A stretch of 64,000 bases of DNA from Treponema primitia ZAS-2 (lineage in GTDB: Bacteria; Spirochaetota; Spirochaetia; Treponematales; Breznakiellaceae), in the NCBI RefSeq assembly GCF_000214375.1, contig NC_015578.1, forward strand, positions 496,001 to 560,000. Direction: 5' to 3'. Below, piece by piece: positions 41,270 to 58,011 of the stretch. Position 1 is the stretch's first letter. The number at the start of each line of letters is the position of its first letter. Made by a program: the position numbers and the translations under genes. The notes beneath the pieces are model-generated. The model was not told the DNA's origin and searched no databases. It was given only the letters and a program-made list of their open reading frames with translations.

Positions 41270-41381
41270 GGAGCGATGTCCGAGTGGTTGAAGCAAGGTA
41301 GGCTCCTTACGGAGCCAATCAGAATGGTCTTGAAAACCGTTGTGCCATAAGGTACCGGGGGTTCGAATCCCCCTTGAAGTG
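41270..41381 (+). pseudogene. Disrupted tRNA-Ser(TGA) copy 2
   Basis: A 121-bp tandem duplicate of copy 1 with three base changes (T/C before AAGG, G/A in the hairpin loop, G/A in the variable arm). It has the same 32-nt insertion and the same unpaired 3' end. Confidence 0.8.
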
Positions 41382-41475: not shown

Positions 41476-41555
41476 TATTAATAGGGTTCCGGGCTTTTTA
41501 GGGAAAGGCCGTTTGACATAGGTATTTTGGGACTTGTTCCCTGTTTATAAACTTT

Positions 41556-41643
41556 GGAGCGGTGGGTGAGTGGCCGAAACCAACGGTTTGCTAAACCGTC
41601 GTACCTTCACCGGGTACCGGGGGTTCGAATCCCCCCTGCTCCG
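41556..41643 (+). tRNA. tRNA-Ser(GCT)
   Basis: 88 nt, acceptor GGAGCGG/CTGCTCC, G73, anticodon GCT at 41590-41592, class II variable arm, T-arm GGGGGTTCGAATCCCCC. Reads AGC/AGT. Followed directly by a structured element that copies its 3' end. Confidence 0.93.
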
Positions 41644-41704
41644 AATGGCAAAATGTTGCCAGAGATGTTTGCGTTGGTCTAATAATTTTTAATAGCAAAA
41701 AAGC

Positions 41705-41820
41705 GGGGGATTCGAACCGGAGCCTTCGCTGACCAACGGGAGGAAAAGGCAGAAGGCGCAGGCGGGTCTCCGGTTGCGGACAGGACGTCCGCCACCGGAG
41801 ACCGAATCCCCCCTGCTCCG
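41705..41820 (+). ncRNA. tRNA-Ser-linked structured element A
   Basis: Left end GGGGGATTCGAACC (41705-41718) is the reverse complement of the preceding tRNA T-arm (41622-41635). The right end (41803-41820) repeats the last 18 nt of that tRNA (41626-41643). The ends pair over 10 bp. Inside are a GCCTTC/GAAGGC stem around a conserved GCTGACC-AMGGGAGGAAAA loop and a TCTCCGG/CCGGAGA stem capped by GCGGAC-AGGAC-GTCCGC. The same fold with different paired bases occurs in element B. No reading frame on the plus strand explains it. Confidence 0.55.
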
Positions 41821-57705: not shown

Positions 57706-57712
57706 AAGTGAA

Positions 57713-57740
57713 GGGGGGATTCGAACCCTCGCTGCATGGT
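57713..57740 (+). repeat. Truncated tRNA-Ser-linked element C
   Basis: GGGGGGATTCGAACCC (57713-57728) is the exact reverse complement of the tRNA-Ser(CGA) T-arm (57683-57698), giving a 16-bp hairpin across the tRNA end. The following TCGCTG matches the start of element A's conserved loop, but the rest of the element is absent. Confidence 0.6.
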
Positions 57741-57764
57741 TGCTTATTGTTAAGGTTCTAGTTT

Positions 57765-57851
57765 GGAGAGGTGTCCGAGTGGTCGAAGGTGCACGCTTGG
57801 AAAGCGTGTGTGCTTGAAAGAGTACCGGGGGTTCAAATCCCCCCCTCTCCG
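57765..57851 (+). tRNA. tRNA-Ser(GGA)
   Basis: 87 nt, acceptor GGAGAGG/CCTCTCC, anticodon GGA at 57799-57801, class II variable arm, T-loop TTCAAAT. Same transcript as tRNA-Ser(CGA). Followed by structured element B. Confidence 0.93.
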
Positions 57852-57877
57852 TTAAAGTATCTATATCTAAACAAGAT

Positions 57878-58011
57878 GGGGGATTTGAACCGGAGTCCCC
57901 GCTGACCGAAGGGAAGAAAAGGGCGCATGGATGCGCCCGTCAGGGGACGTAGGCGGGGGTGGAGGAGCAAACAGGATGTTTGCGACGGAACCCCAAATCC
58001 CCCCCTCTCCG
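57878..58011 (+). ncRNA. tRNA-Ser-linked structured element B
   Basis: Left end GGGGGATTTGAACC (57878-57891) is the reverse complement of the T-arm of the preceding tRNA, including its own TTCAAAT variant. The right end (57994-58011) repeats the last 18 nt of that tRNA (57834-57851). Inside: GTCCCC/GGGGAC stem around GCTGACCGAAGGGAAGAAAA, a GGGCGCAT/ATGCGCCC hairpin, then a GGGGT/ACCCC stem capped by GCAAAC-AGGAT-GTTTGC. The paired positions covary with element A. Confidence 0.55.

Follow-up and report, generated by a model that had tools for sequence, protein, structure and literature searches.

A repeat behind tRNA genes of Treponema primitia and other bacteria that carries copies of the adjoining tRNA 3' part

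Short dispersed hairpin repeats that lack a gene of their own and occur both singly and in tandem are known as REP/BIME repeats, which RAYT (Y1) transposases mobilise, while integrative elements at tRNA 3' ends show a direct repeat running from the T-loop to the end of the tRNA. CsrA-sequestering RNAs of the CsrB/RsmZ type and the TwoAYGGAY RNA (RF01731) present GGA in hairpin loops of ANGGAN or CAGGANG form, and it is general knowledge that IS110 bridge RNAs and group II introns contain a short stretch that complements the insertion site on both sides of the joint. Here we describe element B, which resembles each of these systems. It occupies positions 57852-58011 of the window, that is, the whole stretch of 64,000 nucleotides analysed (positions 496,001 to 560,000 of contig NC_015578.1), part of the 4,059,867-bp complete genome of Treponema primitia ZAS-2, from the order of Treponema. 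Unlike REP/BIME repeats, element B contains sequence of the adjoining tRNA twice, once inverted and once direct, and its family does not co-occur with Y1 transposases. Unlike tRNA-site integrative elements, the unit spans only about 130 bp, contains no integrase, has ends that vary with the tRNA and bears an additional inverted arm. The CsrA-sequestering RNAs differ from it in that its ends derive from a tRNA, its G-U content is low and it matches no Rfam family at the gathering score (a TwoAYGGAY match of 26 bits, E = 2, lies beside a copy in Margulisbacteria and not over the element itself). It departs from bridge RNAs and group II introns in having no protein in the unit and no reverse transcriptase (RT), and in being accompanied by direct target repeats.

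Copied tRNA ends in element B and its family

Element B lies directly behind tRNA-Ser(GGA), which ends at 57851, and is laid out as follows.

57764-57852, + strand: tRNA-Ser(GGA), source of the element's ends; mature gene about 57765-57851 (ARAGORN; Rfam tRNA, 54 bits)
57852-57877, + strand: spacer S, from the tRNA to the arm (sequence)
57878-57891, + strand: arm, GGGGGATTTGAACC, inverted copy of the tRNA T-loop and 3' T-stem (complementary to tRNA 57830-57843)
57892-57993, + strand: core, comprising P2, the tandem-GA hairpin, P3, P4 and P5 (fold; family alignment)
57895-57948, + strand: P2, GTCCCC (57895-57900) with GGGGAC (57943-57948), enclosing the tandem-GA hairpin and P3 (fold; family alignment)
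57902-57917, + strand: tandem-GA hairpin, CTGACCGAAGGGAAG; family consensus CCGACCnnnGGGAGG (family alignment)
57921-57938, + strand: P3 hairpin with loop C[ATGGAT]G, of the CsrA-like ANGGAN form (sequence; loop survey)
57967-57983, + strand: P5 hairpin, GCAAAC-AGGAT-GTTTGC, with the CsrA-like apex CAGGATG (sequence; fold; loop survey)
57994-58011, + strand: tail, CAAATCCCCCCCTCTCCG, direct copy of the tRNA-Ser(GGA) 3' end from C56 (compared with 57834-57851)

A reading made from the sequence alone had matched element B to its own tRNA, and the match proved exact: the arm is the reverse complement of GGTTCAAATCCCCC inside tRNA-Ser(GGA) at 14 of 14 positions, and the tail is identical to the tRNA 3' end at 18 of 18. 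The same reading compared element B with element A, a copy at 41703-41820 behind tRNA-Ser(GCT). Its account of the stem differences was correct (GTCCCC/GGGGAC in B vs GCCTTC/GAAGGC in A, and GCAAAC/GTTTGC vs GCGGAC/GTCCGC), and the loop texts are kept between the two as it described.

An initial alignment of 19 copies gave a common fold, in which P1 joins the arm with the tail, P2 surrounds P3 and the tandem-GA hairpin (the most conserved motif of the family), and P4 stands with P5. The covariance model that defines the family found 23 copies in the same genome (E up to 1), including about 13 tRNA loci, and the element is thus not a chance feature. Within the order, the model detected the family in 188 of 294 genomes, and in a draw of 247 genomes from the phylum it did so in 31, mostly from that order. 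A BLAST search of relatives located inserts of this kind after tRNAs for Ser, Pro, Glu, Trp, Leu, Ala, Arg, Gln, Val and Tyr. Occurrence is patchy, with related genomes holding either none or many copies. Beyond spirochaetes, carriers were sought by a pattern scan of species genomes and then confirmed by model search, which yielded seven Omnitrophota genomes (1-14 copies each), two Deltaproteobacteria-labelled genomes (8 and 39 copies), Margulisbacteria (4 copies) and one Clostridia bin (2 copies). Pattern matches in Streptomyces, Rhizobium, Erythrobacteraceae, Mangrovicoccus, Planctomycetota, Chloroflexi and Myxococcaceae were dropped, as they look like chance matches in coding sequence. The family was absent from the phages, plasmids and viral contigs searched, and an origin from any of these was rejected on that ground. 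Our literature search retrieved no description of the element, and two large structured-RNA surveys gave no match on tRNA or spirochaete terms. The repeat family is real, widespread and, within the literature searched, undescribed.

Copies sit directly 3' of genes for 15 tRNA isotypes or for tmRNA. Among 150 aligned matches, 131 lie on the same strand within 700 nt 3' of a tRNA gene; the 19 without a nearby tRNA include four loci behind tmRNA (L202, L182, L174 and L210) and others at contig ends. Each unit is about 115-145 bp long and contains no gene. Its arm inverts tRNA positions 54-65, its conserved core is rich in hairpins, and its tail repeats the tRNA directly, starting at position 56 and reaching the 3' end or beyond. 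The expectation that the ends of further copies would match the adjacent tRNA was borne out for nearly all of the 131: the arm matched its own tRNA over at least 10 nt in 87% (vs 11% for tRNAs of other isotypes) and the tail over at least 12 nt in 85% (vs 1%). The boundaries of the copied segments are equally clear in 113 copies. Arm agreement is 0.98-1.0 at positions 54-62, then 0.93 and 0.90, and then 0.62, followed by background; tail agreement is 0.05 just before C56 and 0.95 at it, remains within 0.92-1.0 up to the tRNA 3' end and is about 0.67 beyond it. The most frequent length of the uninterrupted arm match is 11-12 nt, seen in 70 of 122 copies. Counts at G-U positions (25 vs 10) show that the arm derives mainly from the 3' T-stem strand, in inverted form, and a direct copy of the 5' strand was accordingly mostly rejected as its source. 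In two copies at tRNA-Thr (L394 in genome G586 and L402 in G553), both arm and tail use the 5' T-stem strand (GACCCG) in place of the 3' strand, and the tail of the G553 copy ends at a different repeat, CCTGAGCCTGTCGAAGGG.

Double-sided changes in the helices

Covariation had been proposed from elements A and B, and in one respect it stands: the stored alignment shows double-sided change at 35 of 36 pairs of the fold, with 91.5% of cells paired, both compared against every control and both to be read with the caveat that this alignment was fitted to the covariance model. The pairing of arm and tail in P1, on the other hand, is not compensatory. Of 50 cells in which the tail had drifted from the tRNA, the arm matched the tRNA in 46 and the tail in 2. 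The arm thus keeps the tRNA base where the tail does not: each was copied from the tRNA independently, the two do not form a co-evolving stem, and P1 appears to covary because both came from one tRNA. Compensatory evolution or mutual correction between arm and tail was rejected for the same reason.

The accompanying interpretation of the element as a structured RNA is likewise upheld in part. The double-sided changes speak for it, yet G-U accounts for 1.4% and A-C for 0.48% of helix positions in the element core, vs 5.7-6.6% G-U and 0.1-0.25% A-C in the tRNA acceptor and T stems of the same loci, which is not the signature of an ordinary RNA helix. P1 has 24 G-U against 27 A-C, and P3 has 6 against 7. 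Because ARAGORN favours G-U over A-C in the tRNA control, and the covariance model does likewise for the elements, more weight should rest on the low G-U percentage than on the remainder of the comparison. The strand of element B folds at -64.4 kcal/mol (z = -2.8), a value equalled by 2 of 200 shuffles. More generally, double-sided "covariation" need not signal selection on RNA when one source supplies both strands of a helix.

A candidate mobile repeat and its proposed insertion

On balance, we favour the view that element B is a copy of an undescribed non-autonomous mobile repeat, which lodges in the 3' portion of genes for tRNA or tmRNA and takes its ends from the target. Tandem arrays of two to five units are frequent, the last unit often being truncated; each tandem unit consists of a tRNA 3' end, spacer, arm and core, and the repeats that include the spacer measure 36 bp (L042), 60 bp (L272) and 39 bp (L085). 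In the same genome (3622400-3623200, L008), a second copy is nested in the P5 loop of a copy at tRNA-Pro, and at a tRNA-Tyr (L056) the 3' part of the element stands alone, with the 5' part missing. A simple target-site duplication with one length rule is unsupported, as repeat ends are spread, partly from truncated tandem units.

Further irregular copies were observed. One element of this genome (3458700-3459300, L009) follows a tRNA-Leu with a degenerate 5' half, at which ARAGORN calls no tRNA; in another, at tRNA-Met (about 1462362, L080), the third tandem unit is interrupted by an apparently tyrosine-integrase-like reading frame. Three loci (L215, L162 and L307) have about 60-110 nt of extra sequence in the P3 loop or core.

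Insertion would take place at the 55/56 joint of the T-loop, with both ends drawn from the new target. This could happen in two ways: the arm of the incoming molecule may have to match the target, much like a guide, or the ends may be recopied from the target through strand switching at the near-palindromic T-loop TTCRA. Arm and tail would then drift independently, tandem copies could arise by recombination between the 18-bp direct repeats of the tRNA 3' end, and the core would be retained as inverted repeats in those copies that move. The mobilising enzyme need not be encoded beside the element. A bolder version, which we put forward tentatively and consider rather doubtful, is that the element, which has no genes, refits its 11-12-nt targeting arm to each tRNA it enters, by rewriting or by selection, has spread in this way over 15 isotypes, tmRNA and several phyla by an insertion unlike that of transposons, introns or retroelements, and has GGA hairpins able to load CsrA.

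Several observations weigh against a mobile repeat that takes its ends from tRNA targets. Lengths of the right-hand repeat show no sharp peak, and what separates three close genomes of one genus is mainly the number of units (at tRNA-Ala and at tmRNA), together with the state at tRNA-Thr. No empty site was found in a close relative, and in the tmRNA empty-site search within one genus the nearest element-free genomes were too diverged for alignment; the insertion step is thus our inference. No partner enzyme emerged either: RT, as defined by the RVT_1 (PF00078) profile, is equally frequent in genomes that have the element and in those that lack it (29% each, p = 1), and so is Y1 transposase (46% each, p = 1). 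In the Deltaproteobacteria-labelled genome G520, most of the 39 model matches (L318-L335) have no tRNA beside them, and the arm complements a repeated GGAGCGAGAAYCC context, whose variable bases it tracks; these copies are preceded by a repeated GGAGCGAGAAYCCAACC context, with spacer S partly conserved. Finally, the core helices are better preserved than the ends, with G-U somewhat in excess (41 G-U vs 14 A-C), which makes a function of the transcript possible. A small excess remains in P2, P4 and P5, so that some selection at the RNA level may exist.

Both candidate partners were rejected, Y1/RAYT for want of any association with the element and RT for its absence from the 23-copy T. primitia genome (no RVT_1 match) and lack of co-occurrence. 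No autonomous, protein-bearing copy was seen in the loci read.

The window contains further material of this family besides element B.

41555-41644, + strand: tRNA-Ser(GCT), neighbour of element A (ARAGORN)
41705-41718, + strand: arm of element A, GGGGGATTCGAACC (complementary to the tRNA-Ser(GCT) T-arm)
41719-41802, + strand: core of element A, with P2, GA hairpin, P4 and P5 but P3 missing (covariance model, 100 bits)
41803-41820, + strand: tail of element A, copy of the tRNA-Ser(GCT) 3' end (18-bp direct repeat; locus L068)
57712-57731, + strand: arm-like remnant, AGGGGGGATTCGAACCCTCG, right behind tRNA-Ser(CGA) (20 nt, 95% complementary to the tRNA T-arm)

Together with the core-like bases that follow it, the remnant at 57712-57731 is probably a truncated third copy. 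A partial tRNA-Ser 3' half, without an ARAGORN call, lies at about 41324-41375, just upstream of tRNA-Ser(TGA).

CsrA, guided insertion and other explanations

The likeness of the hairpin loops to the CsrA-binding consensus, already noted from the sequence, extends to the family. The CsrB repeats of Escherichia coli present CAGGA(U/A/C)G in hairpin loops, and the site bound by RsmE is an ANGGAN hexaloop (PMC7652899). P3 loops of spirochaete copies are mostly C[ANGGAN]G or CAGGANG, and their P5 loops mostly CAGGANG; GGA is present in 136 of 148 P3 and 117 of 148 P5 loops. Titration of CsrA by the element is thus a possibility. As an explanation of the element, a CsrA-sequestering small RNA, in which the core would be transcribed and its GGA loops would titrate CsrA as CsrB does, many tRNA-linked copies supplying more sites, seems to us possible but on the unlikely side. 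In its favour, csrA was found in all spirochaetes tested, in G520 and in the Margulisbacteria genome (G521), with GGA loops wherever copies exist, while in seven Omnitrophota genomes with no csrA match over the cut-off GGA occurs in 2 of 21 P3 and 3 of 21 P5 loops, with UAU, UCU and similar loops in its place. This contrast is a correlation resting on few clades, and GGA loops are present in two bins in which csrA was not found (G519 and G522). About one in eight spirochaete P5 loops is CACGANG, without GGA, and GGA loss (8% in P3; about 11% in P5 excluding this CGA class) is near the expectation from tail drift (about 4.4% per site). The few G-U pairs in the core helices also count against a CsrA sponge, as does an intrinsic terminator between tRNA and element in 21 of 82 loci (simple scan). 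The CACGANG variant recurs in P5 of L098, L171, L277 and others, sometimes in both P3 and P5 of one copy.

RNA- or DNA-guided insertion, in which the 11-12 nt of the arm, complementary to the target on both sides of the joint, would serve as a guide and copies would land wherever it fits, appears unlikely. The sharp arm length across the joint agrees with it, as do the G520 arms, which complement a non-tRNA context, with a perfect 13-nt match at the end of a protein-coding gene in L326. However, the matched context in G520 may belong to the moving unit, occupation of 15 isotypes and tmRNA would require many guide changes, and no nuclease is linked to the element.

An ordinary structured RNA gene or attenuator, inherited vertically downstream of tRNA genes, would account for the strong double-sided changes and the constant strand relative to the tRNA, but is improbable given the patchy occurrence among related genomes, the different tRNAs occupied across species, the tandem and nested copies, the decay of single copies and the low G-U content. 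Target-primed reverse transcription, by which an RT would insert an RNA copy at the T-loop with target duplications of variable length and occasional 5' truncation, fits the fixed joint at the element's 3' end, the variable repeat length and the tRNA-Tyr copy that has the 3' part alone, but the RT results given above make it highly improbable.

If the GGA loops do load CsrA, the family would amount to a CsrA sponge dispersed by a mobile repeat. That the ends nearly always equal part of the adjoining tRNA suggests an insertion process that reads or copies its target, without a linked enzyme. The commonness of the family, in its order and in other phyla, affects the annotation of tRNA and tmRNA flanks.
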